Shown here piece after piece: positions 475 through 21,895 of a stretch of DNA of 40,908 nucleotides; the first letter of the stretch is position 1, and every line of letters begins with the position of its first letter. The DNA is taken from positions 1-40,908 of the IMG/VR virus record IMGVR_UViG_3300027631_003126. One strand, written 5' to 3'. This DNA is from a virus. The notes under the pieces are model-generated. The model worked only from the letters and a program-made list of their open reading frames with translations. It was not told where the DNA came from and made no database searches. Both the position numbers and the translations under genes were made by a program.

Positions 475-3400
475 TTAGTCGATCCAAGTGATGGTTACAT
501 CAAGCTTTGAAGGATCCTTTTTATTAGCAGTTACTGTAGTTCTAGACATAGTTCCACAATCACCGCAGAATGTTGAATTTTTGACCTTATTTGCATGTCT
601 ATTACCGCAAGCTGGACAAATCATACCAACAGGTAATCTAGTTTCCTTATCTCTATTAAAATCTGCAGAAGCAGCTCTTAAATATGGATCTGGATCAACT
701 GTCGCAGATAATCTGAACATACCTCTTGCAGCTGCCATTGGCATTCCAGGAGCTGGTGCAGCTGGCATACCAGGAACAGTAGGAGCAGGTGCTGTTGCAG
801 CGCCTAATCCCATATCAGGACCTAAGCCAAGATCTCCAGCTGGAGCTTCTGTTTCAGGAGCCAAAGGAGCTTCTGCTCCGCCTTCGCCTTCATTTGAGGA
901 AAGAAGTTCAATTGTTTGTGTAATCTTGTATCTAGAACCACATTCATTACACTTACAATCATCAAGAACATCGATATCAACATTTTTAGATGCACATACA
1001 GGGCAGATAGATCCCCAAGGAGCTTTTTCACCCTTGACTTCTTCTGCAGGAGCTTCATCAGCAGCCATATCATCAGCGGTCATAGCGGAGAGACCTAAAT
1101 CTCCACCACCCATAGCGCCCATGTCCATACCAGCATTTTGATCAATTGGTCCTGCAGCTGGAGATTGAGGAGCTGCGCCACCCATTCCAGCCATTTGAGC
1201 ATATCTTTCAAGAAGCTTAGAACGTAAAGACTTAGCAGCTACAACAGCATTTTCTGTCATAATTACAGGAACATCTTCACCATAAAGATCTGTCTCTCCA
1301 GTTCCTTCTGTTGGTTCTGTTGCTACTGTTAAATCTTCAGCTACATCATCAGCCTTGAATGTTTTAGTTGTTCTCGAGGAGACAGTTGCTGTAACATCAC
1401 CATTTTCAGTTACAGAAAGGTCGGTAAATGCAAATGTACCTGGATCAACTGTAAAGCCCTTGGATTGTAAAACTTCAATTGCTTTATTCTTAAATGCATC
1501 TTCAAAATTATCATCAGAAGGCTTAATGCCACCAAGATCTTCAAGGCAGCAATAGAATCTTACACTTTCAAACTTTTCTTGTGTAATGTTCATAGCAGCG
1601 GTCTTTTCAGACTTTTGTTGTGCAGTAATTGCCTTAGAGATAAGCTTTTCGGCTACAGCTGGTTCTTCAACAAGTTTCTTAGCTGCTCTGACAATTGCAG
1701 ATGTTTTAATGTTATAATTTTCAGAATAATCAGCAAACCATCCCATTAAATTTTGTGTTAAAGTTTGCTTAGCTGCAAATCTTTGTCCCCAGAATTGTCT
1801 TCTAGCTCTCGACTTCGCTCTAGCTTCTGTTACGGATGCAGTCTTAGCATGATTAATATGAGCTCTCATAACGTTCTCATCCATGCCAGCAACTTCATCA
1901 ACAATCTCATCAGGTGTTACGCCGGTATCATTAGCAGCAGTTCCCATAGAGGCAAGTGCAACCTGAAGTTCTTCTTTAGAGATTAAATTATCATCTTCAG
2001 AAACGGCACTGGAAAGAGCAGCCTTAAGTTCTTCAGATCTTGATGGAGAAGCATTCATACCATCTACAGCAGAATCTTGCATATCTGCCATAAGAAGTTC
2101 TGCAAATCTTGTAACGCCTTCTTTAGTAATTTCGCCTTCATCAACAGCGACCTTAAGAGCTTCGGCTAAATCTGCAGCAGTAATGGAACCTTGAGAAACA
2201 GCATCACCAAGTTCTTCAAGGATAGCAGTTGTAGAGGACTTTGGTCCCTTTTCTTCCTTAAAGAAATCAGATCTAGCATCTTCCTTAGATCTAATGTCTG
2301 TACCAAGAGCAGATGTCTCAACCATTTCAGGAAGTTGTGGTTCTTCAGCTAATCTGCCAGCAGAATCCATAATTTCATCAGGTGTAACCATTGCAGCAAC
2401 GACAGCCTTAGCAAGAGCCTTAACTGCAGTAATCATAACTGTTTCAGCGTCAGCAGTGCCATGAGCTCTACACTTGGACAATCTTTCTTCAAGAGTGCCA
2501 TCAAGAACGCCCTTATTAACCTTTGCTACTAATTCCGAAAGAGTTTCCTTAACTTCTTCGTCCTTAACCTTATTTGCATAAAGTCCAGCATCAGCTAATT
2601 GCTTTTCAATAACTTCAATATTTGCTTCAGATCTTGCACTATAGTAAGATCCAGCTAATTCTTCTTCTCTGATTTTATCGCCAGATGGGTTTTTTCTTGC
2701 GTACTCAGCAGCATTCGAGCCACCAAGTTCTTCATTGATAGTTTTATATTCTTTGTTAGTTCTAAGCTTCTCTAATTCAACTTCCTTAACACTTCTATCT
2801 GTAGATGTTTCAAGTAAAGCAGTCTTGACAAATTTATTCAAGTCTTTAAGTAATTCAGAAGCAACCTTAGTGCCTTGTCCAGATTCCATCATTACTAGAG
2901 CATTCTCAGTAAGTGAAGGTTCCCAATTAATTTTAACATTGTTGTGATAGCCAGAAATGGAACCATCTGTTGATAAAACAACTCTATTTCCAGACCCATC
3001 TTCAACCTTAAAATCAATGGTGACGGCGGATGCTGTTCTTTTACGTTGTTCAGACGCAATTTTAGCAAAATGATCCATTTGATTTTTTCCCTCCGCCCTA
3101 TCATATTGGGGCGCATTTGTTTTTATATTTGTATTACGTCCAGATGCAGATCTGATAACGCTGCTAGTTGCTTCTTTAATTAAATCTTCATCAACTAAAG
3201 AAGACTTGAAAGATAAAATGCCTTCAGCTAATCTTTCAAACTTCGATTTTCTAGTATTTTTCGTACTAGCAAAAACTTCTCTTCTATTATCTTTTGATGC
3301 CCACACTAACATTGCATTATCATCAGAAGCAGTTGTAATGCCTCCTCCGATTGGTTCACCCATCATTACAGCAGGTTCTAGCATTCTTCCAACATTACCA

Positions 3401-4683
3401 GCAGAAGTATAATTTAAATTAGCCATCTGTTGTGGTTGTTGCTGTTGTGGGGCTGCCTGTTGTGGTTGATTAATAGGTCTTTGTTGTGCAGATTGTCCAG
3501 TATCAACACCATCATCAATAATATCTTGCATAGTAGATTGAAGATCAGCCATAGATTTAGTGATTTTACCTACATGAGCAAGATCGATATTATCTTTTCT
3601 TGAGAACATATTCATCACAGCAACTTCTAGGAAATTAAGTGATAAGTTGATCAAATCCAAGATATTTAGGCCAGCTCTTGGGTCAATTCCTAAAGCTTGC
3701 ATAACAGCACCAACAGTAGCATTTTGTCCTGCGCCTGGTTGTGCTAAAAGTTGTCCACCTACGAGAGTTCCAGCAGTTTGGGCTAATCTAACAGCAGTAT
3801 TTACAGTATTATTAGCAATTTCTAGAGCTTGTTGATGTTCAGGAGATTCGTTTAAATGAAAAGCTACTGTAATGTTTTTGTACAGTTGATTAGCTTTCTT
3901 TTCTAATTGTCCAGCTGCTTGAAGAATTTCATCTACATCATAAATTTCTTCGATTTCACAAGATTCAAAAGCTCCATCACCTACACAAGATAGTTCAATG
4001 AATTTAATTCCATAATTTTTTTCATAGATGTGTTTGCCAGAGCTAGGGTGTTTCTTGCCCTTCCACTTTTTAAGACAATCGCAGTAATCTTTTTCAGTAT
4101 AAGCTTTATTAGAACAATTAGAACAAATACCGTGTTCAACAGAAGCTCCCATAGAAACATCATGGATAACTCCGGTTCTGATATTTCTTGCAATGTCTGG
4201 GTAAGCTTCTTCATCTACGAAATAAGTACAAAAAACGCAATTTTCTTCTTCGTCCCATTCTGCATATACAACCATACCTTTAGCTTGTTCAATGTCATCA
4301 TTCTTATGGTTTGTATAGATTGGTACGCCTTCGAAAGTTTTATAAGAGGGGATTTTTTCGCCTTTAATCTCAACTTCTTTTAATAATTCATCTTTGCCAA
4401 AGTAATCGCCATTTGCATTTACTACATCTGCATCAATAGCTCTAGCACGAACCCAAAGAAGCTTAGCACCCTTTCTAGATTGCATTTCCTTAACGATATC
4501 AAAGTCTTTATATTTTTTAAAAACATCATCAGGATTCGCATAGAGTGATTGAAGGCCAATTTTTGCAGCTTCTCTAAAATTTGTTGAAGCTGTTTTCAGA
4601 AGATGTTCTTTTACAAGTTCTCTATCATTTGCATCTAGAAAACTCTCAATTGTTATTCTTCCACCTTTGGCAAACTTAAGCAT
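475..4683 (-). CDS. Giant prohead protease fusion with zinc ribbons (1402 aa)
   Basis: The N-terminal quarter looks like a phage prohead maturation protease. Residues 76-100 carry the RAIDADVVNANGDYFG segment, His126 sits in a YTNHKNDD motif and Ser177 in VSMGAS, which fit the His and Ser positions of the herpesvirus/HK97/T4 gp21 protease fold. A cysteine cluster (C187, C190, C201, C203) interrupts this domain. After about residue 260 the chain is far longer than an ordinary protease (200-300 aa). It includes a Gln/Pro-rich linker near 400-425, a long helical middle resembling scaffold, and two C-terminal zinc ribbons (near 1225-1250, and C1356, C1359, C1373, C1376). A protease-scaffold fusion that processes the capsid interior is the likely role. 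The ATG at 4683 has GGAG upstream. The gene follows the portal gene, a common order in capsid modules. The protease assignment is fairly sure; the functions of the middle and C-terminus are unknown. Confidence 0.7.
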   Translation of the reverse strand: MLKFAKGGRITIESFLDANDRELVKEHLLKTASTNFREAAKIGLQSLYANPDDVFKKYKDFDIVKEMQSRKGAKLLWVRARAIDADVVNANGDYFGKDELLKEVEIKGEKIPSYKTFEGVPIYTNHKNDDIEQAKGMVVYAEWDEEENCVFCTYFVDEEAYPDIARNIRTGVIHDVSMGASVEHGICSNCSNKAYTEKDYCDCLKKWKGKKHPSSGKHIYEKNYGIKFIELSCVGDGAFESCEIEEIYDVDEILQAAGQLEKKANQLYKNITVAFHLNESPEHQQALEIANNTVNTAVRLAQTAGTLVGGQLLAQPGAGQNATVGAVMQALGIDPRAGLNILDLINLSLNFLEVAVMNMFSRKDNIDLAHVGKITKSMADLQSTMQDIIDDGVDTGQSAQQRPINQPQQAAPQQQQPQQMANLNYTSAGNVGRMLEPAVMMGEPIGGGITTASDDNAMLVWASKDNRREVFASTKNTRKSKFERLAEGILSFKSSLVDEDLIKEATSSVIRSASGRNTNIKTNAPQYDRAEGKNQMDHFAKIASEQRKRTASAVTIDFKVEDGSGNRVVLSTDGSISGYHNNVKINWEPSLTENALVMMESGQGTKVASELLKDLNKFVKTALLETSTDRSVKEVELEKLRTNKEYKTINEELGGSNAAEYARKNPSGDKIREEELAGSYYSARSEANIEVIEKQLADAGLYANKVKDEEVKETLSELVAKVNKGVLDGTLEERLSKCRAHGTADAETVMITAVKALAKAVVAAMVTPDEIMDSAGRLAEEPQLPEMVETSALGTDIRSKEDARSDFFKEEKGPKSSTTAILEELGDAVSQGSITAADLAEALKVAVDEGEITKEGVTRFAELLMADMQDSAVDGMNASPSRSEELKAALSSAVSEDDNLISKEELQVALASMGTAANDTGVTPDEIVDEVAGMDENVMRAHINHAKTASVTEARAKSRARRQFWGQRFAAKQTLTQNLMGWFADYSENYNIKTSAIVRAAKKLVEEPAVAEKLISKAITAQQKSEKTAAMNITQEKFESVRFYCCLEDLGGIKPSDDNFEDAFKNKAIEVLQSKGFTVDPGTFAFTDLSVTENGDVTATVSSRTTKTFKADDVAEDLTVATEPTEGTGETDLYGEDVPVIMTENAVVAAKSLRSKLLERYAQMAGMGGAAPQSPAAGPIDQNAGMDMGAMGGGDLGLSAMTADDMAADEAPAEEVKGEKAPWGSICPVCASKNVDIDVLDDCKCNECGSRYKITQTIELLSSNEGEGGAEAPLAPETEAPAGDLGLGPDMGLGAATAPAPTVPGMPAAPAPGMPMAAARGMFRLSATVDPDPYLRAASADFNRDKETRLPVGMICPACGNRHANKVKNSTFCGDCGTMSRTTVTANKKDPSKLDVTITWID

Positions 4684-4750
4684 GTAATATAATTCTCCGA
4701 TCAGAGACTAGTCTTAATTTCTGTTCTAGAATTTGCCTCTAAATTCCTGT

Positions 4751-4758
4751 TATTTATA
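4751..4758 (-). promoter_or_regulatory. Possible T4-like late promoter element (TATAAATA)
   Basis: The minus strand reads TATAAATA 68 bases upstream of the start of the protease-fusion gene. This is the T4 late promoter consensus, and this phage encodes its own sigma factors and a sliding clamp. In DNA this AT-rich the 8-mer is expected several times by chance, so support is weak. Confidence 0.2.
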
Positions 4759-4763
4759 CAGTT

Positions 4764-7205
4764 TTAAACAAATTCTTCCGTCATATTAGAGTTACCTAAT
4801 TTTTTCCTAATAGCTTGAGAAATCACGCTAATAACATCTTGAGAATGTTCTTTAAGTTCTTTGTCAGTAAATCTTAATACTGTCCATCCATTAGCAGAAA
4901 GTTCAATATCTCTTCTTTTATCTCTAGCAATTTTTTCAGGATTGTTGTGCCAAATTTCTCCATCGGCTTCAACTGCAATACCTAATTCTGGGATAGCAGC
5001 ATCTAGTTGGTAATCCATTGTAGGTCCAGCTAAATATTGTCCATAGATTGCAAAAGGAAGATTCATAGAGAGAAGCATGCTATAAAGGGATTTCTCAAGA
5101 CTTGTAAACATTTGTGCCTGAGGTCTTTCTAATTTCTTTTTAGCATATCTATGTCTAATATTTTCATCTTCAGAATTTGACCAAGATGAGAAAATTACAT
5201 TTGCTTCATAATTAACTGGGAAAGAATATTCTCCACCAAATTCAGCAACTCTAAGGCTATTTCCAAAGCCATCATATTCCTCTGGTAAAGCTCCTAAGTT
5301 TCCTCTTCCTGTCACTGGGGTAATAGATTTAAGGAAAAGTTCATGAGCTACAGATTTAAATTGAACAGAAGCTAATCTTTGGTTTGTATCTTTGAGATGT
5401 CCATTAAGTTTATCATTATAGATTTCATTAATTACTTTTGATGCTAATCTATAAGTTTCTGTTTTTGTATTTGCTGTTGGTGCTGGAGCTGGAGCTGGCG
5501 GAGGTGCTGGTGCTCCCATTGGTGGTGCTCCCATACCCATATCAGGAGCGCCCATGCCCATTCCCATTCCGGCATCAGGTTGTGCAGGAGCGCCACCAGT
5601 AAATCCTTGACCTGTTACCGGACCTGATGAAAATCCTGTTAGCATGTCAGTGTTTGCAATATTAGGATTATTTACGAAACCTGATCCCTGTTCAAATCTT
5701 AATCTTTCAATTTCCTGATCTGGGTCAAGTCCAAAAGATTCTATAAGAGTCATATTAGAAATAACTCCATTAGAATTAGCGGTAACAAGCATTTGAAGTT
5801 TGCCGGTATCGTCTCTTAATTGTAGATCATCAAATTTAATTGTAGGGTAAATAATTTCATCTTGTCCTCTTTCACCCTCGACAACAAATCCATTCCATAT
5901 TGACACTTGTTTGAAAAGTTGTTCTTCAATCCAGTGTGCAACTTCTCTTCGGAATGTTTCAAGTCTTTGTGCCATTGCGAGAAGACCAACTTGAGCATTT
6001 CCATATGTAGGACCTTCGCCATTAAGAAGAGCCTTGTTAAGCATAAGACCATCTAAAATTTCTTGGTCAATTAATTCATATTCGTTTGTTAATTGAAGAA
6101 CCTTACCAGATGCTCCATAAAATTCAAAGTCAAAAGCATGGTGTGTGACAAGAGTAAGGTTAGGGTCATTTGCGATGGATGCTAACTCTTCTTGGACATT
6201 ATCGATATCTTCTTGTGATGCTGGTCTTTGATCATTTCCAACCTTGACAATTTTAATAGGAAGGATATGTCTTTCAGCTACTAACCATTGAGATTGTCTT
6301 AATTTATCTTTATATGCTAATGTTGGGAATAATGGTCTAATCATAGGTGTGCCATAATCTTCCCAAGGGTTAGATCCATGTTTAAAGTGTTTGATAGAAA
6401 TAGGGTTTAATTTAATTGGTTCTCCCCTAAGTATCATTTTCTTTACTGAATCTGGAATTTGATCATAATATTCTTTAGGTTGTTTTTCTTGGACAATTCT
6501 GATTTCTTCTGCTGATGGTCTGTAAACATATCGCCCTTCTTGATCAATCATTCCGGGCATTTTCATTACACTATCAGGATTTAAAACAGAGAGAGATTTC
6601 CAAGTTGCGCCTTCATGTTGGCATTCTTGATTCTTATCAGCATCCCAGTTAGAGCCATGGCAGTGAGAGCATTCAATTGAGGATAAAACAAACACGTCTC
6701 CAAGCAAATGATAAACTTTAGATATTTCTGGTAGCCATTTTTGAAAGTTGAGTTTTTGAATGAGTTTTTCAAAATAATCTTTAACATATGAGGAAGAACA
6801 TTCAAGCTTCCATCCAGAGAAAGGGTAGTTGGTATAGAAATTAATACCTGCTGCAATTTTAGGTTCGTTATTTCTCCACCAGTTCGCCCACAAATACACT
6901 TCTTTTCGTGCATTTGGAATTTGGAAAGATGTAGCTGTAAGGAAAGGAGAATAAAAGTTTGGCGCAGTGGTGATATTACCAGACATCTGAGCATATTTAT
7001 TCATATTTGTAGAAGCATTTGCCCCTACAGATGATGCTGCTCTTGAAGATGCGTAAGCTCTATCTATATTAAAACCTTCAGACCCAGTGACTCTTTCTCC
7101 GGTAACTGTTTGGGCTGCAGTCTTTAATGCTGTTTGTAATGATGAAACGTTTTCTGTTGACAAATTATTGACCTCATAAGTATTTGTTAGAATAGTAAGT
7201 AACAC
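4764..7205 (-). CDS. Portal protein with C-terminal Vsr/DUF559-like nuclease domain (813 aa)
   Basis: Residues about 95-560 have the character of a large-phage portal: an aromatic-rich N-terminus (LWANWWRNNEPKIAAGINFY), a central region of the type PISIKHFKHGSNPWEDYGTP, and the helical clip/stem ending near DPDQEIERLRFEQG. The portal forms the dodecameric DNA gate of the head. A Cys/His cluster (C179, C182, about C197) is inserted in the body. A Gly/Met/Pro-rich linker near 570-600 follows. The last 120 residues look like a PD-(D/E)XK nuclease of the DUF559/Vsr group: D735, E746, D748, then W752-H753, and an RDKRRD..L...GW.VLRF segment (761 on). The start is uncertain: GTG at 7205 gives the longest frame with only a weak GAG upstream, and a TTG near 7163 is an alternative. 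Portal function is fairly sure; the nuclease activity is inferred from motifs. Confidence 0.8.
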   Translation of the reverse strand: MLLTILTNTYEVNNLSTENVSSLQTALKTAAQTVTGERVTGSEGFNIDRAYASSRAASSVGANASTNMNKYAQMSGNITTAPNFYSPFLTATSFQIPNARKEVYLWANWWRNNEPKIAAGINFYTNYPFSGWKLECSSSYVKDYFEKLIQKLNFQKWLPEISKVYHLLGDVFVLSSIECSHCHGSNWDADKNQECQHEGATWKSLSVLNPDSVMKMPGMIDQEGRYVYRPSAEEIRIVQEKQPKEYYDQIPDSVKKMILRGEPIKLNPISIKHFKHGSNPWEDYGTPMIRPLFPTLAYKDKLRQSQWLVAERHILPIKIVKVGNDQRPASQEDIDNVQEELASIANDPNLTLVTHHAFDFEFYGASGKVLQLTNEYELIDQEILDGLMLNKALLNGEGPTYGNAQVGLLAMAQRLETFRREVAHWIEEQLFKQVSIWNGFVVEGERGQDEIIYPTIKFDDLQLRDDTGKLQMLVTANSNGVISNMTLIESFGLDPDQEIERLRFEQGSGFVNNPNIANTDMLTGFSSGPVTGQGFTGGAPAQPDAGMGMGMGAPDMGMGAPPMGAPAPPPAPAPAPTANTKTETYRLASKVINEIYNDKLNGHLKDTNQRLASVQFKSVAHELFLKSITPVTGRGNLGALPEEYDGFGNSLRVAEFGGEYSFPVNYEANVIFSSWSNSEDENIRHRYAKKKLERPQAQMFTSLEKSLYSMLLSMNLPFAIYGQYLAGPTMDYQLDAAIPELGIAVEADGEIWHNNPEKIARDKRRDIELSANGWTVLRFTDKELKEHSQDVISVISQAIRKKLGNSNMTEEFV

Positions 7206-7309
7206 ATTTAACTCATGCTTATCTATCTATTTAGTACAATTTTTTTATCATTATATCCTTTTTATCAAAAATAAGGTTATAGCATAAAATTTGTATAATA
7301 TAAGTATAA

Positions 7310-8488
7310 ATGAAAATTATTCATAAAACATACAAATTTAGAATATACCCTTCAGAACAACAAAAAATTGTTATCGAAAAACACTTTGGTTGCTGTAGAT
7401 TTGTGTTTAACAAATTTTTAAATGAAAGAAAAGAAGAATATTTAAATAATGGAAATTATTTAAATTATTATAATAATGCAAAATCTTTAACTGAAATAAA
7501 AAAAGATTTACCCTGGCTGAAAGAAGTAAATAGTCAATCATTACAATCAGTTTTGAAAAATTTAGATATTGCTTATAATAGATTCTTTAAAAAAATAACC
7601 AAATTTCCAAAATTTAAAAAGAAAAATTATAATCAATCATTTCATATTCCTCAATCTGTAGAAATTAAAAATTACAAACTTTCTATACCTAAATTTAAAC
7701 AGGGAATAAAAATTAAAATAGATAGAGCAATAGAAGGGAAAATTTTAAATGCCACTCTATCAAAAAATTCAACAAATAAATACTATATTTGCATAACTTG
7801 TCAATTAGAATATCAAACATATTCGCCGACAAAATCCTCAATTGGTATTGATACAGGCATAAAAGATTTAGCAATTTTAAGTGATGGAACAAAATACGAA
7901 AATATTAAATCATTAAAAGTATCATTAAAAAAACTTAAATACGAGCAGAGACAACTTTCAAAGAAAACTAAAGGAAGTGGTCTAAGGAATAAACAAAAAA
8001 TAAAACTTGCCTTAATTCACGAGAAAGTATCTAATAGAAGAAAAGATCATTTACATAAAGTATCAACAGAAATTATCAAAAACCACGATATTATCTGTAT
8101 TGAAGACTTAAATGTTAAAGGAATGATGAAAAATCATAAATTAGCACAAGCACTTTCTGATGTTGGACTAGGAATATTTTATAGTTTACTAGAATACAAA
8201 GCATCCTGGAATAATAAAACTATTATTGTAATAGATAGATTTTTTCCAAGTAGCAAAATGTGTTCAGAATGTAATTGGATTAACCAAGAATTAACCTTGA
8301 AAGATAGAAAATGGACTTGTTTGTACTGCAGAACAGCACATGATAGAGATATTAATGCAAGTAGAAATATTCTTATTCAAGGTTTAAATATACTGTCTGG
8401 ATTAGGGACTAATTCGGACAATAAACAAAAACAAGTGGAGTCGTCTTCGATAGAAGAGGCTATGAAACTTGAAATTCAGAAAATTTAA
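7310..8488 (+). CDS. tnpB: TnpB RNA-guided nuclease, IS605 OrfB family (392 aa)
   Basis: TnpB proteins are RNA-guided DNA nucleases, ancestors of Cas12, that preserve their elements by cutting empty target sites. This copy is full length and has the split RuvC residues D181 (GIDTGIK), E265 (CIEDLNVKG) and D347 (HDRDINAS), plus the zinc ribbon C318, C321, C337, C340. The N-terminal helix-turn-helix region (YKFRIYPSEQQ) is intact. It is encoded opposite to all its neighbours. A TATAAT lies at 7294-7299, close to the ATG, but no convincing -35 is seen. The 3' end of the gene and the hairpin behind it are the expected source of its omega-RNA. No damage to catalytic residues is visible, so it should be active. 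Confidence 0.93.
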   Translation: MKIIHKTYKFRIYPSEQQKIVIEKHFGCCRFVFNKFLNERKEEYLNNGNYLNYYNNAKSLTEIKKDLPWLKEVNSQSLQSVLKNLDIAYNRFFKKITKFPKFKKKNYNQSFHIPQSVEIKNYKLSIPKFKQGIKIKIDRAIEGKILNATLSKNSTNKYYICITCQLEYQTYSPTKSSIGIDTGIKDLAILSDGTKYENIKSLKVSLKKLKYEQRQLSKKTKGSGLRNKQKIKLALIHEKVSNRRKDHLHKVSTEIIKNHDIICIEDLNVKGMMKNHKLAQALSDVGLGIFYSLLEYKASWNNKTIIVIDRFFPSSKMCSECNWINQELTLKDRKWTCLYCRTAHDRDINASRNILIQGLNILSGLGTNSDNKQKQVESSSIEEAMKLEIQKI

Positions 8489-8502
8489 ATCTGAATAGTT
8501 CA
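8474..8502 (+). ncRNA. Putative 3' end of omega-RNA for TnpB 1
   Basis: The stem 8474-8480/8490-8496 with a 9-base loop, followed by TAGTTCA, sits at the tnpB stop codon. In IS605-type elements the guide RNA scaffold is processed from this part of the tnpB transcript. The guide would then be the flanking phage DNA from about 8503. The call rests on position and analogy. Confidence 0.4.
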
Positions 8503-8506
8503 TACT

Positions 8507-8884
8507 TCAGTTTGTTGTAATATTAGAAGGAAGATCTTGAAACATGTCAGCGCCTTTGCCAACGTTATATTGAGGTATGCCCCTTATAAGCATGTCTCCT
8601 CTAATATTCTCTGTACTACCCATAGATTGAAATACAGGATCATCTTCTCTTGTAGATTCTAATTGTTCTTCTAAAGTTAAAGAATCTAAAGATATTGGTG
8701 CAACCTGAAGTAGACTTAACAATTCATTTCTTTGCTGTTCAGATAATTTTTTATAAGCATTTAAACTTATTTTCATTTGATCTAACAAGCTAATAATCTG
8801 AGGTAAAATTACTTCTTCTTCTTGCAAATTAGGGGAAGAAATAATTCCTCCCCCAATTGAACCTTGAGCTAATTTATACCACAT
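8507..8884 (-). CDS. Hypothetical virion-region protein (125 aa)
   Basis: This is a small soluble protein of unknown family, transcribed with the portal module. It starts MWYKLAQGSIGGG, a Lys-Leu-Ala-Gln then Gly-rich pattern seen in several other structural-region proteins here. Residues 30-65 are predicted helical (LLDQMKISLNAYKKLSEQQ). The ATG at 8884 directly abuts the stop of the 501-residue upstream gene (8885), which indicates translational coupling. The TnpB 1 element ends a few bases past its stop codon, so native downstream signals have probably been separated from it. Confidence 0.75.
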   Translation of the reverse strand: MWYKLAQGSIGGGIISSPNLQEEEVILPQIISLLDQMKISLNAYKKLSEQQRNELLSLLQVAPISLDSLTLEEQLESTREDDPVFQSMGSTENIRGDMLIRGIPQYNVGKGADMFQDLPSNITTN

Positions 8885-10378
8885 TTAGTCTTCTCTGAGT
8901 TCTTCTAATAAGCTATCTAATCCAAGTTCGCTTGCGAAATTCTTTAGATCATCATCAGAGAATTGGTGTCCCCATTTAGCATCTTCAGAAAGAAGTTCTT
9001 CAATTGTTTTATCAATATCTTCGTTAGTTCTTCTATCTTCTAATTCTTCTTCTCTGGTAACGTCACTCTTCTTGGCTGTTTTATTAAGATGTTGAGAGAT
9101 TGACATGTCATCTCCATCACCAGCATCTTTGAGAATTTCTTCAATGTACCACTTAGGAGCATTTTGTTTCTTCAAGAGTTCTTCAGCATATGTTTCAAAT
9201 CTCTCATCTCTTCTAGAAATAAGATTATCAGATTCATTGAGATTTTCTTCAATTGTAGCTTCTGTGTTAAATTCATTGTCTGATTCTACATCTCTCATAG
9301 AATCATTTTTATTTGTTCTTGGTAATTGATCTTCAAGAACTTTATCTGTATGTGTTTGTGCAGTTTTGGTAGATTTCTCATCGTTTCTTCTACCTAAATC
9401 TGCTGGCTTAGCTTTTCCTAAAGATTCTTCAATAGATGTAAAATCTTTTCTGTTTTCATGGACTTTAGCAGCTTCCATTCTTGCTTCGTATCCAATTTCG
9501 CCTTCAGTGATTTCATTTTCTCTATTGCCATCAGAAAGGTTTAAAAGATTCTTAGCGTTATCAGGATGTCTAAGCTTATTTAGTCTGTTTTCCATTTTAG
9601 CATGAGTATCTGCAGTGACTCTTAGCCAATCTTGATAAGCACATGTCACCGAGCCATCTTTAGCAATTCTGGAATCTATACAATTTTCTCTACACTTACT
9701 TGTTTCCATAGGTATTGCATGACCAAATTCAACTACACCCTTTGGACAGAGAAGAAATGGTTCATTGCCTTGAGTAGATAAAGATGTGTAAGCAAGTCTT
9801 GTAGATTTTGTTGGAGTGATTGCATCGAAGGCTAATTTAACAGTTTCTTTAGCTTCTTTGATATTAGCTGAAAGGATTTGATTCTTAGCAATATTAGCAA
9901 TCTTTTTCATTTCAAAGGAAGAATCTGAAATGACATATTGAATAGCATTAAGGGCTTCTAGTTGATGATGACCTGGGGAAGATTTAGTAACTTTCGAAGC
10001 AATTCTTTCCATTTGTGCAGCTTCATCATCATTCATACTTGCTAGAGAAACATAAGCATGCCTAAGAGCATTTCTGTGTTCTGATAATCTAAAAGCTGAA
10101 AGATTGTTAAATAATCCTTGTAAATGCTCTAAAGGATGTGAACCGCCCATAATCTTGATAATTTTAACTGGACCGCCTAAAGAATCAAAACGGTTAACAG
10201 TTGGATCTTGGTGATTAAAATCAGAATTTTCAAGAAGATTAAATGGATGCTCAATTTTCTTATGTAAAGCTTCAATAGAATCTTTGATAGCTTGAAGTAC
10301 ACCGCTTCCAGAAATTAAATCTTTTGCTTTTTCTGGGTCATGTGTATGATATTTTGTTTTAACTTTAAACTTAGCCAT
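8885..10378 (-). CDS. Hypothetical structural-region protein with Cys cluster (497 aa)
   Basis: I choose the ATG at 10378 (MAKFKVKTKYHT) over the TTG at 10390, because the GGGGG ribosome binding site overlaps the TTG codon and is well placed for the ATG. The N-terminal half is helical. Near the middle is a conserved-looking cluster CPKG...KCRENC...TCAYQDW (C211, C229, C233, C246), which could bind zinc or an Fe-S cluster. The C-terminal 200 residues are charged and rich in Glu, Asp and Asn, with repeated EELL-type helices. It lies in the capsid/portal operon and overlaps the end of the upstream gene. I do not recognise a family, and a minor capsid or internal head protein is only a guess from position. 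Confidence 0.75.
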   Translation of the reverse strand: MAKFKVKTKYHTHDPEKAKDLISGSGVLQAIKDSIEALHKKIEHPFNLLENSDFNHQDPTVNRFDSLGGPVKIIKIMGGSHPLEHLQGLFNNLSAFRLSEHRNALRHAYVSLASMNDDEAAQMERIASKVTKSSPGHHQLEALNAIQYVISDSSFEMKKIANIAKNQILSANIKEAKETVKLAFDAITPTKSTRLAYTSLSTQGNEPFLLCPKGVVEFGHAIPMETSKCRENCIDSRIAKDGSVTCAYQDWLRVTADTHAKMENRLNKLRHPDNAKNLLNLSDGNRENEITEGEIGYEARMEAAKVHENRKDFTSIEESLGKAKPADLGRRNDEKSTKTAQTHTDKVLEDQLPRTNKNDSMRDVESDNEFNTEATIEENLNESDNLISRRDERFETYAEELLKKQNAPKWYIEEILKDAGDGDDMSISQHLNKTAKKSDVTREEELEDRRTNEDIDKTIEELLSEDAKWGHQFSDDDLKNFASELGLDSLLEELRED

Positions 10379-11267
10379 TTTTGCCCCCAAGCCCTAATTT
10401 TTGAACTAATTCTAAATCGTAATCTCTTGCTTTAAGAGCTTTTTTGATTAATTCTAGTTCTTTCTTAGCAAGATTCTTTTCAACAGGTTCTTTACCATCA
10501 TTACCAGCAGTCTTTTTGTCTGTATCTGCTACTGACATTAGAAAAATAGCTCTGTGAATAAGATCTATAGTCGAAATTTTATTATAGTCTTGCTCTACAT
10601 CATAAATTGTATCTGCTGCAGTTCTTAAATTGACATCAGAAGAGCTTTTAGTTTTTCTTTCTTTTTTCTTATTATAGTCTTTTACAAGGTCAACAGCTTT
10701 TTCGATAGTTTCATTATTCCAATATTTTTGTTTTGATAAATATCTAACAATATCAGATTTTTCAATTCCATGGTCTAATAACTTACCAACCTTACCCATT
10801 AAAACTCTAAATGGATTGCCTCTAGTTTTTTTCTTCTTTTTAGGGGCTTGAGCAACTTTAAGATTAAATTTAACAGTTGCTTCAGTAGTATTATTTTCCA
10901 TTGGATTTTCCTTAAAACTATCTAATCTATTTAATTGGCTATATAATCTTTGAGCTAATTGTTTTGCGTTAGGATCTTTTTTGCCAGTAGCTGGATCGAC
11001 AGTTTCTCTTCTGGGGTCATTTGCTAAATCTATTGCTCTGATAATAACGCTTAATTTCTTTTTGACATTTTCATCTTGGACTTTGAGAATAAAATCTTCA
11101 TAAACAGCTTTTAATTCTTTAACAGTTTCAGGATTTGCATCAATTGTTTCTTTTAAGAGTTTATTCAATTGATTTTTTGAAACTCTACTAGAATCACCAC
11201 CACCTAAGTGAATGTTATTGATACCATTTGCTGGGTTTGAAGCTATACCTGCATTCTCAGAATACAT
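10371..11267 (-). CDS. Hypothetical structural-region protein (298 aa)
   Basis: This is a soluble, Lys-rich, largely helical protein of no recognised family. It opens with a disordered, Gly/Asn-rich stretch, then helices (residues 30-75). A basic segment FNLKVAQAPKKKKKTRG lies near 135-150, then another helical domain (DIVRYLSKQKYWNNETIEKAV) resembling a three-helix module. The stop overlaps the next gene's start region, and its own ATG abuts the stop of the 274-residue upstream gene, so the three are co-translated. Position between capsid-type genes suggests a virion or assembly role. Confidence 0.75.
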   Translation of the reverse strand: MYSENAGIASNPANGINNIHLGGGDSSRVSKNQLNKLLKETIDANPETVKELKAVYEDFILKVQDENVKKKLSVIIRAIDLANDPRRETVDPATGKKDPNAKQLAQRLYSQLNRLDSFKENPMENNTTEATVKFNLKVAQAPKKKKKTRGNPFRVLMGKVGKLLDHGIEKSDIVRYLSKQKYWNNETIEKAVDLVKDYNKKKERKTKSSSDVNLRTAADTIYDVEQDYNKISTIDLIHRAIFLMSVADTDKKTAGNDGKEPVEKNLAKKELELIKKALKARDYDLELVQKLGLGGKNG

Positions 11268-12092
11268 TTAGTCCTCTTTGTCAAAATCAAGATTAACTCT
11301 ATTATAAATTTGATTAATTGTTTGTGCACTTAATTCTGCTCTGGATTCAAATTCTTCTTTAGATTTCTTCTCTAAAGCTAACTTTGATTCTCTTCTATGA
11401 GCAGCTGTAGAAACTCTTAAAGCTTCTCTCTCATCAAGAGCCTTAAGGTCAATAGCTCCGAATGATGCATCATAAGCATATTCTGTAGAGGATCTAAGAA
11501 TATTATGTCCTCTAGAATTAACAACACTAGACTTTCTTAATTCATTAATCTTAGAAGATTCCCAAGATTGATGTTTAGATGCTCTAGCTTCTCTTTGTTG
11601 TTGTTGATCGACAACAGCTTGTTGCGAAGAAGATTCTTGGCTTTGTTTAAAAGTTTCTGCAATATCAATCATATCTGGATTGAAAATAGATGCAGATCTA
11701 GATAACATAGCTGACATATAATCTTCAGAAGAGAATGCCTTCAATCCACTAGTTAATGTTCTAGCGGTATCACCATCATCATAAGCATATGAGGATCTCT
11801 TGATTGTTTCAGCACTCAAACCAGCTGTTCTCTCAATATCAGCAACTCTTTCTTCAAAAGATACATCTCTTAATTCGTTGTAGATAGATGGTCCTTGAAT
11901 TTTTTCCCAGCTGTTATTTTTTAAACTGGCTTCTTTATTAAATCCAGTTTGTTTTGCAATTCTAGTTCTATTGTCCTGAGAATTTGCCTTTAATTCAGCA
12001 TATGGGTCATCGTTCTCTGGAGTGCCAAAGAAACTCTTTTCCAAAATTGATGGAATCTGTTCGATTTGTGAAACTTTCTTGAATTTACTCAT
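11268..12092 (-). CDS. Hypothetical helical protein (274 aa)
   Basis: The family is not recognised. The sequence is polar, Ser/Arg/Glu-rich and probably extended helices or partly disordered (for example LRKSSVVNSRGHNILRSS and the Gln run near 155). It ends with a charged helical segment (residues 220-270). The ATG at 12092 lies just downstream of a hairpin at 12126-12148, so it may begin a transcription unit or be expressed by read-through. It is followed without spacing by the 298-residue gene. A structural or assembly function is inferred only from the neighbourhood. Confidence 0.7.
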   Translation of the reverse strand: MSKFKKVSQIEQIPSILEKSFFGTPENDDPYAELKANSQDNRTRIAKQTGFNKEASLKNNSWEKIQGPSIYNELRDVSFEERVADIERTAGLSAETIKRSSYAYDDGDTARTLTSGLKAFSSEDYMSAMLSRSASIFNPDMIDIAETFKQSQESSSQQAVVDQQQQREARASKHQSWESSKINELRKSSVVNSRGHNILRSSTEYAYDASFGAIDLKALDEREALRVSTAAHRRESKLALEKKSKEEFESRAELSAQTINQIYNRVNLDFDKED

Positions 12093-12125
12093 ATTTTTTC
12101 CCTGTTAAGCCCTAAAAATACTCAA

Positions 12126-12148
12126 TCCCCCTGCTAAAAACAGGGGGA
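12126..12148 (-). terminator. Stem-loop after the acidic 302-aa gene
   Basis: An 8-bp GC-rich stem (12126-12133 with 12141-12148) and 7-base loop lies about 23 bases past the stop codon of the upstream gene. On the minus strand it is followed by ATTGAGTATTTTT, so the T run is displaced. It may be a weak terminator or an RNA-stabilising hairpin. Confidence 0.55.
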
Positions 12149-12170
12149 ATTATCTCGAAGGGTTTATAAT

Positions 12171-13079
12171 TTAGTCGTATTTCTTGGTGAATAACTCGTC
12201 AATCCACTCTTGATCGCCGTAGCCAAGTTCTTCTTTCCAATATCTCTTAAGTCTGTCATAATCAGCATTTGTAAGGGTTGCAACCTTTACAAGTCCAGTT
12301 ACAGCAGATTTCTTAATATTGTTATTAAGCTCAGATGCCATGACATTCTTGATTTCAACAACATCATTATTTTCTGTATGAGCAGAGGTTCCAAGCATAG
12401 CATCGATATATTCTTGTGGGAATCCAGCTGCTTGAGCCTTCTTGATGAAAGCACTCTTAGCTGCAGAATTAGCTTGGGAGACCTTGACAAAACTTGTTTC
12501 TTGCTTAGCAACTTTAATATTCTTATTAGCTGCATTTTGAGCTTCAACAATCTTTTCAATCTTGTTAGCTAAACGAACTCTGCGCTCATGTCTAGCTGCA
12601 AGGATAGCATCTACTAATGGCTTGTCACCAGAAGAGATTGCTGCTTCAACTGCCTCAGCAGAAAGCTGACTTGGGTGGTTGAAATGAATTTGTCTATTTG
12701 CCTTCACGTCTTTACCTCTAACGACCTTTTCATGTTCTGTTTCATTCATGGCTTCTGTGTCATCATCTTCATCTTCGTCGTCTTCAGTTTCTTCAACTTC
12801 TTCATCGACAACAGCGCCATCTTCATCATCTTCATCTTCATCTTCGTCTTCGTCATCTTCAGAGTCTTCAGCAAGAGCCTTTAACGCTGCTAAGACTGCA
12901 TCATCGCCAGTATCAGCGTTAATGTGATTCTTAAAATGCTCAACGAGTTCTTTTGGCATCTTTGGGTTTTTCTTCTTGGCTTCAACAATGTTTAAGCCTT
13001 CCCAGTTGATACCTTGATACACGAGTTCAGAGTCAAGTTCACCCTCTTGAACACGGTTTGGAAAAATTCTATCTGCCAT
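12171..13079 (-). CDS. Acidic scaffold-like protein (302 aa)
   Basis: The start is the ATG at 13079 with AAGGA nine bases upstream. The N-terminal 70 residues look folded, followed by a nearly pure Asp/Glu tract (about residues 73-113). Then come Ala/Lys-rich helices and a compact C-terminal segment ending LGYGDQEWIDELFTKKYD. Highly acidic, helical proteins of this size in head gene clusters are often scaffold or decoration proteins, but no family is recognised. It is flanked by a 93-base upstream gap and a downstream hairpin, so it appears to be its own transcription unit, which fits an abundantly made product. Confidence 0.75.
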   Translation of the reverse strand: MADRIFPNRVQEGELDSELVYQGINWEGLNIVEAKKKNPKMPKELVEHFKNHINADTGDDAVLAALKALAEDSEDDEDEDEDEDDEDGAVVDEEVEETEDDEDEDDDTEAMNETEHEKVVRGKDVKANRQIHFNHPSQLSAEAVEAAISSGDKPLVDAILAARHERRVRLANKIEKIVEAQNAANKNIKVAKQETSFVKVSQANSAAKSAFIKKAQAAGFPQEYIDAMLGTSAHTENNDVVEIKNVMASELNNNIKKSAVTGLVKVATLTNADYDRLKRYWKEELGYGDQEWIDELFTKKYD

Positions 13080-13172
13080 ATTTTTTAGTTCCTTCGAGAA
13101 GAGTACAGGAAAAAAGTTCTTTATTAAAGGTTAATTTTCCTGCTAAATTAATATACTTAATTATAGATTTTA

Positions 13173-13547
13173 TTACTTTGTTTCCTTGAAAACTTGTAAT
13201 TCTCTATCCTTATACCAAATTCTGTCACCAATTTTAATGTCATTATCCTTAAAAGCATCTTTTCTAGCTTCTACTACATAACGAACTTTGCTTGATTTTG
13301 GAGACTTCATTGTGCTATCATTTTTATTTAAATCAACAAAATCTACAATTTTTGAATTCTCATCTAAAAAAGCTAAGGATAAATCAAAACTTACATTCTG
13401 ATTCCAAAAACTGTATTTATCCGGTGTGTTAAATATAAAAATGACAGCTTCATCATCTTCAAGGGGCTCGGCAAACATCAGACCTTTTGTTCTTTTTTGG
13501 TCTGTGTCTGCAACGAATCTTACTTTAAAGACGAAATCAGGGGTCAT
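13173..13547 (-). CDS. DUF192 family protein (124 aa)
   Basis: The sequence follows the DUF192 pattern: VRFVADTDQKRTKGLMF near the N-terminus, an IFIFNTPDKYSFWNQNV segment matching the family's F-W-M-K-N region, then SLAFLDENSKIVD and a C-terminal YVVEARKDAF...IKIGDRI. Family members are small beta-rich domains (100-150 aa) of unclear biochemical role, usually secreted in bacteria. Here no signal peptide is seen, so it would be cytoplasmic or virion-associated. Its start overlaps the stop of the upstream gene by 4 bases, so the two are coupled. Confidence 0.75.
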   Translation of the reverse strand: MTPDFVFKVRFVADTDQKRTKGLMFAEPLEDDEAVIFIFNTPDKYSFWNQNVSFDLSLAFLDENSKIVDFVDLNKNDSTMKSPKSSKVRYVVEARKDAFKDNDIKIGDRIWYKDRELQVFKETK

Positions 13548-14047
13548 ATCTTTTTAAATTTAGATGAAGAAGCAGTTTTTACAGATGCAACCTTGACGGA
13601 AGCAGCATCATCGTAATTAAACTTATTCTTCTTTCTTGCCTTTCTAAATTCATTTACTGGATTATTCAAATAGTGATCTCTTAACGCAATTCTAGCTTTA
13701 TTAGTAAGAGTTACAGATCTACCATAGCCTTGTAATAATCCTGCAGTTTTTAAATAAAGGAGATCATTGTCGGAAATATCTCCAGGAACATTGCAATATT
13801 TATCACCATTTCTAGTATTTAAACCTAATCCAGCAGCGGTGGTAATAGTGTCAACATTCTTATCGATAATCTCAAGAAACTTAATGTCTCTTTCTGATAC
13901 TTTGGATGATGTTTTAGTGTTATCATGTTCAGATACACCTAATAATTGTAACTGAAGTCCTGACATACCTGAATCACTAAGACCTTTAAAATCAAAAAGT
14001 TCTTCATGTAAATCTAACTTGTGTACTGGTTTAACTGGGAATGGCAT
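13544..14047 (-). CDS. Hypothetical protein with possible winged-helix segment (167 aa)
   Basis: The family is not recognised. Residues about 95-135 (ISDNDLLYLKTAGLLQGYG...SVTLTNKARIAL) read like a winged-helix DNA-binding or protein-interaction fold. The tail is basic (RKARKKNKFN) and ends in a Val-Ala-Ser/Lys-rich stretch. The ATG at 14047 follows an AAGGAGAAATAT-type ribosome binding site. It overlaps the DUF192 gene by 4 bases and lies 10 bases after the preceding stop, so it belongs to one operon with its neighbours. Confidence 0.7.
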   Translation of the reverse strand: MPFPVKPVHKLDLHEELFDFKGLSDSGMSGLQLQLLGVSEHDNTKTSSKVSERDIKFLEIIDKNVDTITTAAGLGLNTRNGDKYCNVPGDISDNDLLYLKTAGLLQGYGRSVTLTNKARIALRDHYLNNPVNEFRKARKKNKFNYDDAASVKVASVKTASSSKFKKI

Positions 14048-14057
14048 ATATTTCTCC

Positions 14058-14501: not shown

Positions 14502-14525
14502 ATCTTAATTAATTGACTACAAATG

Positions 14526-15620: not shown

Positions 15621-15636
15621 AATAATCTTTTACAAT

Positions 15637-16605: not shown

Positions 16606-16608
16606 TTA

Positions 16609-18679: not shown

Positions 18680-21600
18680 TCAAATTCTTCGACCAAAAGA
18701 CATTGTCCTAGACCCTGGCAATCTTTGTATAATTTTGTTTGTTAGACATTCATAAGAAACAGCAGCAATAGCATCACAAATATCATCTTTATATCCTTGT
18801 AATGCTGAAATATAATATCTAGAACCTTTCCATTTTTTCTGAAGGAATTGAAATTGGATTTTAGCTTCTTGTACTTCGTTTAAATCAAATTCTCTCCCGG
18901 CTGCATCTTGAAATTTGCCTCCAGATAAATCATAAATATCAATTCTGTCTTCTCTTAATAATTGGGTAAGTTCTGTGTAAATTTTCCCTTTATATTCTTT
19001 ATTAAATTGTCTTTCAAGAGCATTAATTCCAGCCCCTTGCATTTTAATTAGAGATGATTGAGAATGCCATTGATCAAAAGTTACTTGTTTAAATTTAAAT
19101 CTTCTATGTAAATCAATTAAATATTCTTCAACTTCTCTTTCTGATACAGGTTGGTTTTTAATCATAGGATTCCAAAAATGAACATGATCAATTACCACTC
19201 TTCTTAAAGGTCTATTATCTGGCCCAACAGTTCCATAAATAGCTTCTGTATGTGCAACAGCTAAAGCATAATAGTCAGAAGTTCGAGCAGGATCTAAATG
19301 ACAATAATAATCTACTAAAGGTTGACCCTGTTCTCTTCTGCTTACCATTGATGAAGAATTAAAAAATCTATTAACTGAATCAGAAGTGAACATAGGATCT
19401 GAAGATGATGCTCCAAATTCAGCTCCATACTGCATTTGATGTTCAACAGGATTCTTTTTCTTTTGATCATCAAGCCAAGCCTTATCAATATTAGGATTTG
19501 TTAGCCAGGTTGGAAGACGCATAACAAGAGTAGTGGGATCTTCTTGTCTGTTCTCATGTAAATCATATAATAGTCCAATAGGTCCTTTAGGGTTAGAAAG
19601 CATCATCATCTTTCCATCTTTACCAAACGTAGCAAGAGATGGCTTCAAATCATCATATAAAGAATAGTCAACGCCAGAATCAGGATTATCCCCGGCCATA
19701 GCAGCTACTTCGTCCATGATAATACACCAACAAGTAAGACCCACAAGACCTGAAGCATTACTAGAACCACACCTTAAAACTAAAGATCCTGGAAATAAAT
19801 TAATCCCAGCTAATTCTCTTCTCTCGTTTTCTTTTCGGTCATGAGCAGTGTAGAATCTCATTTCCAATTCAGTGTCTTTTCCAATAAATGGTTGAAAATA
19901 TGGAGATGCTAAAACTGTCTGCTTAATTTTAGAGAAGATTGCTTTTTTAGCCTGTTCTTCATTACGAGCAACATTTAATAAAACTATCTCATCAAATTCC
20001 ATCAAACCATATCTAGATTGAGGATGATCCATGGAAATTAAACGATAAAGTTCATAAAGAGCCATGGCAGAAACAAGGAATGAATTGTGTGTAGGGATCA
20101 TGCTTCTACCACACAAATACATATGAGATGGATGCTCAACTTGTATACATTGCATTCCAGGATTAGGTACAGGATTACATTCTTTAATAAAAATTCTATA
20201 TTTGTCAGATTTATCTATCGTTGGCTTATTATCTAGGACCGATTGTTTTCTAGAAAGATTAAATACCTTATCTCCTGGACGAACAGAATATGTAATACGC
20301 CAACGATCAGAGGTTTTTCTTCCATATAATTTTGCATCAGATTTCTTAATTGAAGCTTTAAATCCTAATCCACAAACCAATTCATAATAATCATAAGCAA
20401 GAGTTTCATTAGTATTACAAAACTCCACTGTAAATTTCTTAGGGTCTGCATAACCATCTGTATCATTCAAGCCTCGGACTAATTCTAATCTTTGCTCAAT
20501 AGAAGCTTGTTTGTAGATTAATGGGATATGTTTGTTTTGATATAATTTTAGATCCATTATACTATAGATGAATTTATGGCCAGTTTTAACATTAGGATGT
20601 ATATAGTGTGATTTTAAGATATGTGTTGAATGTTTAATTTTATGATCACAATTAGCATCTATGTAGTCAAAAATCTCCATGTCAATTCCTGTTATTTGAT
20701 AAGAAGATCTAGATCCATCTCCTAACCAAGCTCCTAAAAGATAAGGATGAATTAAAAGATCTTGTTCTGGAAATTGAAGGGGTTTTGTAATTTCTATAGC
20801 GTGATTATACTCTACAGAGAATTTCTCATTTCTTTCAGTTTGTGAGCCTTTTTTGAGCATCTGTCTAGGTTTACCATATGTTAATGATTCATATATTTGT
20901 TGTGTGGTAAATACTTGAGGTACAGGATCTTTAGAATATTTACCTCTAGATGCGTTTTTTCTTTGAGCTTTTGTAAGAGTTACCCATTCATGATTTTCGC
21001 CAGCAATAATCCTATCACCATTACTAAAAACTAATTCATAACCTTGCTCTTCATAATCAACATCAGATTTAGCAACAACTTTAGTAGGAGTTCCATCAGG
21101 CGCAAAAACATAATCTCCTACCTTTACATCACCCATTGTAGACCATCCACCCATGGTATATAATGGTGTATTTAAGTCACATAACTTACCGCTCCGTCTC
21201 CCAAGCACTAAAACAAGCTCTTGAAACTTGTATCTTTTGGTGCATTTATCAAGAACCTGTAGTCTGAGCTTAGGATCAAACTCTTCGGAATATAGGAGAT
21301 CTTTTTCGCTTTGGAAGTTGTCGGTAATAGGCCTTTGTTCTAATTCAATTACTTGTCTTTCTGAATCAGGATTTGTAGCTTCTTCTTTAGCTGCAATGTA
21401 TCTTGTTTTTCTAGCTGATTCTGAAAAATGTGAGCATGTAAGGCAGGGTGAATTGACTACAGAAAATATGGTTCTGAAATTCTTTTGTTGATTATAATAA
21501 GATTCAAATTTAAGTTCATTTTCTTTAATATATTCCCATACACACCCTTTACATCCATCTTTATCTTCTTCAGTTACATCATTAATTTCTAGATTTGTGT

Positions 21601-21895
21601 TTCCTTCTTGTCCCATATAGAAGCATTTAAGTATGAGTCTCTGCCAGGGATATGGTTTTAAGTTACAATAATAAGGATGTTCAATAAATGTTACAATATC
21701 TACAATTTGATCAGGGTTAAATCTGTCTTTAGATGGAATGGCAGGTGGTAATGCTTCTGATCTTGTTGCAGGTAAAACTTCATCAAGAAAATCGTATCCT
21801 TGATCTTTTAAGAAGTTTGTGGCATTTGCGGCATTTTGCAAGAGTTGTGTTTTAAAATCTTGCTGGCTATTTTTATCCTTAATTGTTTTACGCAT
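18680..21895 (-). CDS. terL: Terminase large subunit with internal intein (1071 aa precursor)
   Basis: TerL powers DNA packaging with an N-terminal ATPase and cuts concatemers with a C-terminal RNase H-like nuclease. Visible elements are an adenine-binding-type segment PYPWQRLILK (residue 81 on), Walker A GRRSGK (232-237), Walker B CIIMDE (D728, E729), and nuclease aspartates D868 (HLDPA), D941 (VTFDQW) and the D1037-D1041 group. A 366-residue intein (239-604) interrupts Walker A. Removing it leaves about 705 residues. Unusually, a pair of CxxC motifs (C115, C118 and C151, C154) lies between the adenine-binding motif and Walker A. The start at 21895 overlaps the stop of the small-subunit candidate by one base. 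Confidence 0.93.
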   Translation of the reverse strand: MRKTIKDKNSQQDFKTQLLQNAANATNFLKDQGYDFLDEVLPATRSEALPPAIPSKDRFNPDQIVDIVTFIEHPYYCNLKPYPWQRLILKCFYMGQEGNTNLEINDVTEEDKDGCKGCVWEYIKENELKFESYYNQQKNFRTIFSVVNSPCLTCSHFSESARKTRYIAAKEEATNPDSERQVIELEQRPITDNFQSEKDLLYSEEFDPKLRLQVLDKCTKRYKFQELVLVLGRRSGKLCDLNTPLYTMGGWSTMGDVKVGDYVFAPDGTPTKVVAKSDVDYEEQGYELVFSNGDRIIAGENHEWVTLTKAQRKNASRGKYSKDPVPQVFTTQQIYESLTYGKPRQMLKKGSQTERNEKFSVEYNHAIEITKPLQFPEQDLLIHPYLLGAWLGDGSRSSYQITGIDMEIFDYIDANCDHKIKHSTHILKSHYIHPNVKTGHKFIYSIMDLKLYQNKHIPLIYKQASIEQRLELVRGLNDTDGYADPKKFTVEFCNTNETLAYDYYELVCGLGFKASIKKSDAKLYGRKTSDRWRITYSVRPGDKVFNLSRKQSVLDNKPTIDKSDKYRIFIKECNPVPNPGMQCIQVEHPSHMYLCGRSMIPTHNSFLVSAMALYELYRLISMDHPQSRYGLMEFDEIVLLNVARNEEQAKKAIFSKIKQTVLASPYFQPFIGKDTELEMRFYTAHDRKENERRELAGINLFPGSLVLRCGSSNASGLVGLTCWCIIMDEVAAMAGDNPDSGVDYSLYDDLKPSLATFGKDGKMMMLSNPKGPIGLLYDLHENRQEDPTTLVMRLPTWLTNPNIDKAWLDDQKKKNPVEHQMQYGAEFGASSSDPMFTSDSVNRFFNSSSMVSRREQGQPLVDYYCHLDPARTSDYYALAVAHTEAIYGTVGPDNRPLRRVVIDHVHFWNPMIKNQPVSEREVEEYLIDLHRRFKFKQVTFDQWHSQSSLIKMQGAGINALERQFNKEYKGKIYTELTQLLREDRIDIYDLSGGKFQDAAGREFDLNEVQEAKIQFQFLQKKWKGSRYYISALQGYKDDICDAIAAVSYECLTNKIIQRLPGSRTMSFGRRI
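20084..21181 (-). mobile_element. LAGLIDADG-containing intein in terL
   Basis: The in-frame segment of 366 residues begins CDLNTPLYT and ends MIPTHN before Ser605. Splicing blocks are visible: block A as above, an AGENH block B, and a block F/G ending HPSHMYLCGRSMIPTHN. Homing endonuclease blocks LLGAWLGDG and LVRGLNDTDGYAD are of the LAGLIDADG type with both acidic residues. The insertion point is the Walker A loop, a typical conserved target. The N-terminal junction is odd: the frame reads GK-L-C-D-L-N-T where the usual block A spacing would give GK-C-L-x-L-x-T. Confidence 0.9.

Follow-up and report, generated by a model that had tools for sequence, protein, structure and literature searches.

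A predicted DUF559/Vsr-type nuclease domain fused to the portal protein in a lineage of tailed phages

INTRODUCTION

The portals of tailed phages are usually regarded as passive channels and pressure sensors. In established portal structures the crown faces the capsid lumen, and in other phages the conformation of the portal is known to act as a headful sensor. Injected effectors are commonly swapped between related phages. Portals with an additional enzyme domain do occur, and fusions to PBECR RNase, 2H, and InPase domains have been interpreted as injected effectors (PMC5512222). Cleavage of the portal during maturation is known in SPN3US (PMC10052503). In T4, endonuclease VII has been reported bound to the portal gp20 (Golz and Kemper 1999, cited in PMC10893049), and the head-completion nuclease gp4 is required for packaging (PMC7824862).

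The DNA analyzed here (the window) is the stretch of 40,908 nt of the IMG/VR virus record IMGVR_UViG_3300027631_003126. It encodes a portal protein that ends in a nuclease-like domain. A preliminary description of the window pointed out this domain and suggested a captured homing nuclease now working at the packaging vertex, for instance in headful cutting or in degrading competitor DNA.

RESULTS

The portal gene and its surroundings

The open reading frame at 4764–7205, for which the coordinates given at first are correct, lies on the minus strand and is open from a GTG at 7205. A TTG at 7163, preceded by a Shine–Dalgarno-like GAGG, matches the start in a relative that is 93% identical (L038) and is the probable true start, with the fusion gene at 4764..7163 (minus strand). 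Because of this match, residues 1–14 of the listed frame are probably untranslated; the numbering used below is that of the 813-residue frame as first listed.

Directly downstream (475..4683, minus strand) is a head maturation protease (PHROG 18299 and 2774) within a fusion of 1402 amino acids; more than 1100 further residues are fused to it, with two C-terminal zinc-ribbon-like CxxC pairs, and it contains at least six copies of a [KR]-h-A-[SQK] motif. A TnpB (IS605 OrfB) gene (7206–8502) has inserted precisely at the junction of the portal gene with its upstream neighbor; it is absent from that position in L038, a similar copy occurs in L251, and a second TnpB gene is present in the window at 25137–26282. 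A gene for UDP-galactopyranose mutase (14526–15620) lies within the head-gene cluster.

Residues about 76–513 (5667..6980, minus strand) have the portal fold. The protein matches PHROG 16240 (E = 2e-39) and the Pfam family Portal_Mu (1.8e-7), and with the full-length model Foldseek retrieves T4 gp20 (6uzc, 4.6e-9) and the portals of lambda, HK97, and G20c; in sequence as in fold, it is a tailed-phage portal. The last structured portal elements are crown-like helices (467–506). The full-length model, a monomer prediction, has only modest confidence (mean pLDDT 61), so that the position of the nuclease with respect to the crown is deduced from homology. Next comes a disordered linker rich in Gly, Met, Pro, and Ala (residues 514–580; 5466..5666, minus strand; pLDDT 25–37), seen in the sequence as initially reported, and a region that is helical in the structure models (residues 581–688; 5142..5465, minus strand). 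The closest annotated portal is gp14 of Bacillus phage G, about 30% identical to that of the window over the core. Phage G gp14 (648 aa) has a Gly/Pro-rich tail end and no nuclease, whereas the window portal has one.

The C-terminal nuclease domain

Residues 689–805 (4791..5141, minus strand) form a PD-(D/E)XK nuclease domain of the DUF559/Vsr superfamily according to Pfam, AlphaFold, Foldseek, and sequence matches in the PDB. The Pfam family DUF559 (PF04480) covers residues 701–799 (E = 1.9e-8; 34.6 bits against a cut-off of 20.6) and is matched in all 22 relatives tested (E up to 0.01). For residues 702–803, AlphaFold2 with 23 homologs predicts with high confidence the succession helix, three strands, helix, strand, helix (means over 10-residue blocks mostly 84–94, with dips to about 70). 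The predicted fold is a restriction-endonuclease core of the PD-(D/E)XK type, as the preliminary description required. The first Foldseek matches of this model are 3r3p (catalytic domain of I-Bth0305I, E = 6.6e-4), the DUF559 structure 3hrl (TM 0.83 by target length), and Vsr (1cw0). When the sequence profile is compared with the PDB, 3hrl (1.2e-7) comes ahead of I-Bth0305I (5.5e-6).

All the active-site elements named in the preliminary description are found, D735 (5001..5003), E746-A-D748 (4962..4970), and W752-H753 (4947..4952), all on the minus strand, together with the RDKRRD helix and the GW.VLRF strand. No substitution of D735, E746, or H753 occurs among 67 distinct domains, of which 64 retain D748 and 63 retain W752; also invariant are E704, Q723, P739, G749, D762, R765, D766, G773, W774, and R778. 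The domain thus has the D...E-x-D...H active site of the DUF559/Vsr superfamily, on a predicted PD-(D/E)XK-type fold. In three portals (L164, L166, and L173) an intein starts right after the equivalent of E746; in the first two it ends just ahead of C-D-G...W-H, and in L173 it runs off the contig. Inteins typically sit in conserved functional motifs, and their presence in this catalytic motif is an independent sign that the site is conserved and functionally constrained.

Pairwise dN/dS values (with the saturated pair L028/L045 left out) are 0.006–0.043 for the nuclease, 0.016–0.036 for the portal core, and 0.034–0.129 for the linker and middle region. The nuclease is under purifying selection, as strong as that on the portal core; the helical middle region evolves faster than both. 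A chance frame or a read-through is ruled out by the Pfam match and by this selection, and the fusion architecture with its intact active site can be taken as practically certain.

Distribution in related phages

A scan of viral contigs gave 65 loci, on contigs of up to 379 kb, and the domain is present in nearly all of those loci that extend to the portal C-terminus. Scans with a portal-core alignment reached a second, distant set (L134, L156–L173, and others) with a core about 40% identical to that of the window; inteins often enlarge the portals of this set, to as much as 2416 aa, and the same nuclease is found at their end. The inteins of the distant portals occupy several differing sites (L134, L159–L172, L207, L211, L216, L232, and L234).

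Altogether there are 73 distinct portal cores. The nuclease follows in frame in 61, seven end at a contig edge, and four, of phage-G type (L067, L136, L137, and L141), have no nuclease. The remaining one (L044) is interrupted in the linker by one in-frame TGA (7678–7680), behind which the nuclease is intact; this TGA, on the same contig as L118, is perhaps a natural split, a read-through site, or a sequencing error. The portals of Tunturi_5 and of the 485-kb LR745208 also are without the domain. In a maximum-likelihood tree of 46 cores, the presence of the nuclease is explained by one change (support 95/92), with truncated rows and L044 counted in the nuclease group and the root assumed. The fusion is therefore present in related phages, in 61 distinct portals with core identity down to about 40%. 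Since dozens of contigs carry it independently, the fusion cannot stem from an assembly error or an artefactual join.

We did not observe any DUF559 protein in the genomes without the fusion, nor another DUF559 protein above the cut-off in seven fusion-bearing relatives. None of the annotated phage records in the collection covers the whole fusion protein, and no cultured phage that carries it came to light. With the nuclease as query, a scan of the genome collection gave only two cellular DUF559-like proteins, and no provirus or clue to the host. The exchange of C-terminal domains among relatives that is expected of injected effectors is not seen; one domain type occurs in the 61 portals. From these sequence comparisons, the nuclease behaves as a vertically inherited and fixed part of the portal and not as a mobile element.

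A motif in the head modules

Between the linker and the nuclease there are two candidate processing sites, R586-L-A-S589 (5439..5450, minus strand) and R610-L-A-S613 (5367..5378, minus strand), conserved in the window clade and suggested by motif enrichment. In an unbiased scan of four-residue patterns, [KR]-h-A-[SQ] (with h hydrophobic or T) comes first in the head module of the window (475–17000; 17 vs. 1.4) and also in that of the distant relative G009 (L158 and L254; 17 vs. 2.4), while in G010 [KR]-K-A-[SQ] is preferred. The motif was first spotted in the window and its residue set was fixed before G005 was inspected; the head module of G005 (L238–L247) has 18 vs. 2.4. Twelve of the 44 motif sites in G005 fall at residues 25–50 (p = 3e-5), several of them behind a common N-terminal leader. 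A maturation-protease site or a head-targeting signal is the likeliest meaning of [KR]-h-A-[SQ].

The leader (~30–45 residues, LxxIAxxLDxxGxxxxADxI, mostly ending in [KR]-h-A-Q) is common to otherwise unrelated proteins, encoded in the window at 14058–14501 and 28449–29129 and in G005 at 61548, 61994, 76997, 120465, 151406, and 165977. It is perhaps a capsid-targeting propeptide.

DISCUSSION

DNA processing at the packaging vertex

Since its active site is preserved across the whole related lineage, the nuclease very probably serves a regular function in each virion. One domain type fixed throughout the clade would be more in keeping with a steady housekeeping role than with an effector in an arms race. 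In a jumbo-phage lineage related to, but distinct from, phage G, the ancestral portal may have gained a C-terminal DUF559 domain, or the sister lineage may have lost it, in either case in one event. If the portal is the usual dodecamer, each head would start with 12 flexibly tethered copies of the nuclease around the crown.

The most likely role for them, which we put forward tentatively and in which we infer both the cutting and its timing, is the processing of DNA at the packaging vertex. The enzyme would be conditional and restricted to certain DNA structures: DNA that is branched, mismatched, or ragged would be nicked or trimmed, allowing packaging or head completion to run to the end, with a specificity that presumably spares the genome passing alongside. 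It should be conditional since an unspecific, always-active DNase at a lumen-facing crown would endanger the genome; structure specificity, a block until maturation, or restriction to non-self DNA could provide the restraint. Self/non-self discrimination through 2-aminoadenine DNA was dropped, since the short adenylosuccinate synthetase of the window (331 aa; 27424–28419) scores 282.6 bits with PurA vs. 117 with PurZ. Processing at the vertex is preferred because it accounts for the fixation, the invariance, and the position of the domain on the portal, and because T4 offers functional precedents. Possibly, although with considerable doubt, the portal of this jumbo-phage lineage is throughout a covalently tethered second DNA-processing enzyme beside the terminase, conditional on DNA structure and active while DNA is packaged or the head completed.

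Some observations do not favor such a role. Branched DNA would be stopped outside whereas the crown of known portals faces the lumen, so that the location speaks against debranching, unless the long linker reaches outside or the DNA end is the target. In favor of the role, searches of these genomes gave no Endonuclease_7, RuvC, or RecU (Endonuclease_7, PF02945, in none of eight); the portal domain itself has an REase fold. However, six of seven window-clade genomes have a candidate for a RusA-like resolvase (three above the cut-off); a resolvase is thus not lacking in these phages, and the idea that the nuclease is their only Holliday-junction resolvase is weakened. In the window clade, the candidate protease sites, if used, would detach the nuclease from the portal, which counts against a function in packaging.

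Alternative explanations

Ranked below processing at the vertex, and rather unlikely in our estimate, is the explanation that the nuclease is cargo, built into the capsid lumen with the portal C-terminus as a delivery device. The maturation protease would cut at R-L-A-S after the linker, and the nuclease would leave the head with the DNA and degrade host, plasmid, or rival phage DNA in the next host. A lumenal position is indeed expected for a domain following the crown, the head maturation protease is encoded by the next gene, [KR]-h-A-[SQ] is enriched in the head modules of the window, G009, and G005, and most window-clade portals have two such sites, with variable flanks, between linker and nuclease. 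There are also precedents, in the portal–enzyme fusions read as injected effectors (PMC5512222) and in the portal of SPN3US that is cleaved in maturation (PMC10052503). On the other hand, the distant-clade portals keep the nuclease with no motif between portal and nuclease (if present, the motif comes after the nuclease), which means that the function does not include release as a conserved step; as a general mechanism, release by the protease is supported in the window clade but not in the distant one. Further, [KR]-h-A-[SQ] is a candidate cleavage site only, a free and active nuclease next to the packaged genome needs an off-switch that this explanation does not provide, and the portal nuclease is fixed whereas injected effectors are usually swapped among relatives.

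It is improbable that the fold is kept mainly for a structural or DNA-binding use, holding the DNA end or a head protein with catalysis secondary or absent. Cleavage activity is predicted only, and D748 is replaced in three of the 67 domains, which would agree with such a use; however, D735, E746, H753, R765, D766, and W774 are invariant in all 67. If the module served for binding only, the loss of catalytic residues at some point over such divergence would be expected.

Still less probable is a nuclease that makes or assists the headful cut terminating packaging. Its location at the packaging vertex would suit the task, as would the portal conformation serving as headful sensor in other phages. 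But the terminase large subunit (18680..21895, minus strand) has kept its own nuclease: the RNase-H-like aspartates (HxDPA, xxDxx(N/H/G)S, and (K/T)DDxxD) are conserved in the nine genomes aligned, and the loss that would go with a replaced terminase nuclease is not observed. Replacement of a dead terminase nuclease is thus ruled out and, of the earlier suggestion of headful cutting, the form in which the domain stands in for the terminase is disfavored; with these aspartates intact, it would be too simple to take the domain for the headful nuclease. Besides, the docking site of the terminase is on the portal's outer side. A LAGLIDADG intein interrupts the terminase gene at the loop that binds ATP (GRRSGK, then C), and a search of the terminase sequence against the PDB gave nothing useful.

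Origin of the domain

The large subunit of ribonucleotide reductase is encoded in the window by two genes (33014–36836), the first ending with a Hint-like intein start and the second opening with an apparent intein end. The ORF of a Vsr-like endonuclease (34758–35657) lies between the two halves, and the locus is apparently a fractured gene with a split intein. The W-H-[GN]-N-P piece common to this endonuclease and the portal domain is real, but it reflects only a distant kinship within the superfamily (BLAST E = 3e-4 in a single comparison; profile comparison E = 1.2e-6), and Pfam gives no DUF559 match in the reductase-gene endonuclease. EDxHD homing endonucleases are mobile genes of patchy distribution, located within introns or inteins or next to them; the portal nuclease does not follow this pattern, because it is portal-fused in every complete member and accounted for by one change in the tree. 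The descent from a homing nuclease suggested at first is thus unsupported, with DUF559 the best family by sequence, vertical inheritance, and no mobility seen. Judged on the sequences, a general DUF559 ancestor is the simpler source, and no homing ancestor need be assumed.

That the domain is a recently captured homing endonuclease now being lost, or the product of a faulty assembly, is most improbable: homing elements are plentiful in these genomes and there is distant structural kinship with I-Bth0305I, but the domain is clade-wide at about 40% core identity, vertically inherited, and under purifying selection, and DUF559/3hrl is the better sequence match.

Comparison with known systems

Both parts of the protein belong to known families and enzyme–portal fusions are known, while a lineage-wide fusion of a DNase-type domain to the portal is apparently undescribed: a domain of this type fixed on the portal of a lineage was not found in the openly licensed literature searched, and a survey of jumbo phages does not mention a portal–nuclease fusion. 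With a nuclease fixed on the portal throughout a lineage, either the packaging vertex itself would edit DNA or the portal would load a nuclease into the head. This bears on how genomes of very large size, in which branches and nicks build up, come to be packaged completely.

The DUF559/MTES_1575 nucleases (PF04480 and PF18741; 3hrl) have the same predicted fold and D...E-x-D...H site as the portal domain; in phage records such relatives are free-standing, helicase-linked, or unnamed, whereas in the window the nuclease is a domain of the portal. Fold and W-H motif are also like those of the Vsr mismatch endonuclease and of the EDxHD homing endonuclease I-Bth0305I. Unlike these, the portal nuclease is outside any intron, intein, or free gene and gives no sign of mobility.

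Other head-vertex proteins with C-terminal enzyme domains are the MuF polymorphic toxins (PMC5576092), but the window protein has no MuF match in Pfam and its C-terminal domain is not swapped. The PBECR, 2H, and InPase fusions (PMC5512222) likewise place an enzyme domain on a phage portal; those are diverse and sporadic effectors, whereas here one DNase-type domain is fixed lineage-wide.

In T4, gp4 (TnsA-like REase fold; PMC7824862) is likewise a PD-(D/E)XK protein, virion-associated and needed for packaging, but it is a separate protein of another REase subfamily, and the Foldseek match of the portal nuclease to TnsA is weak (E = 0.46). Endonuclease VII at gp20 similarly puts a nuclease at the packaging portal. 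It is a separate protein of unrelated fold, bound non-covalently, whereas in the portals described here the nuclease is a covalent domain with an REase fold.
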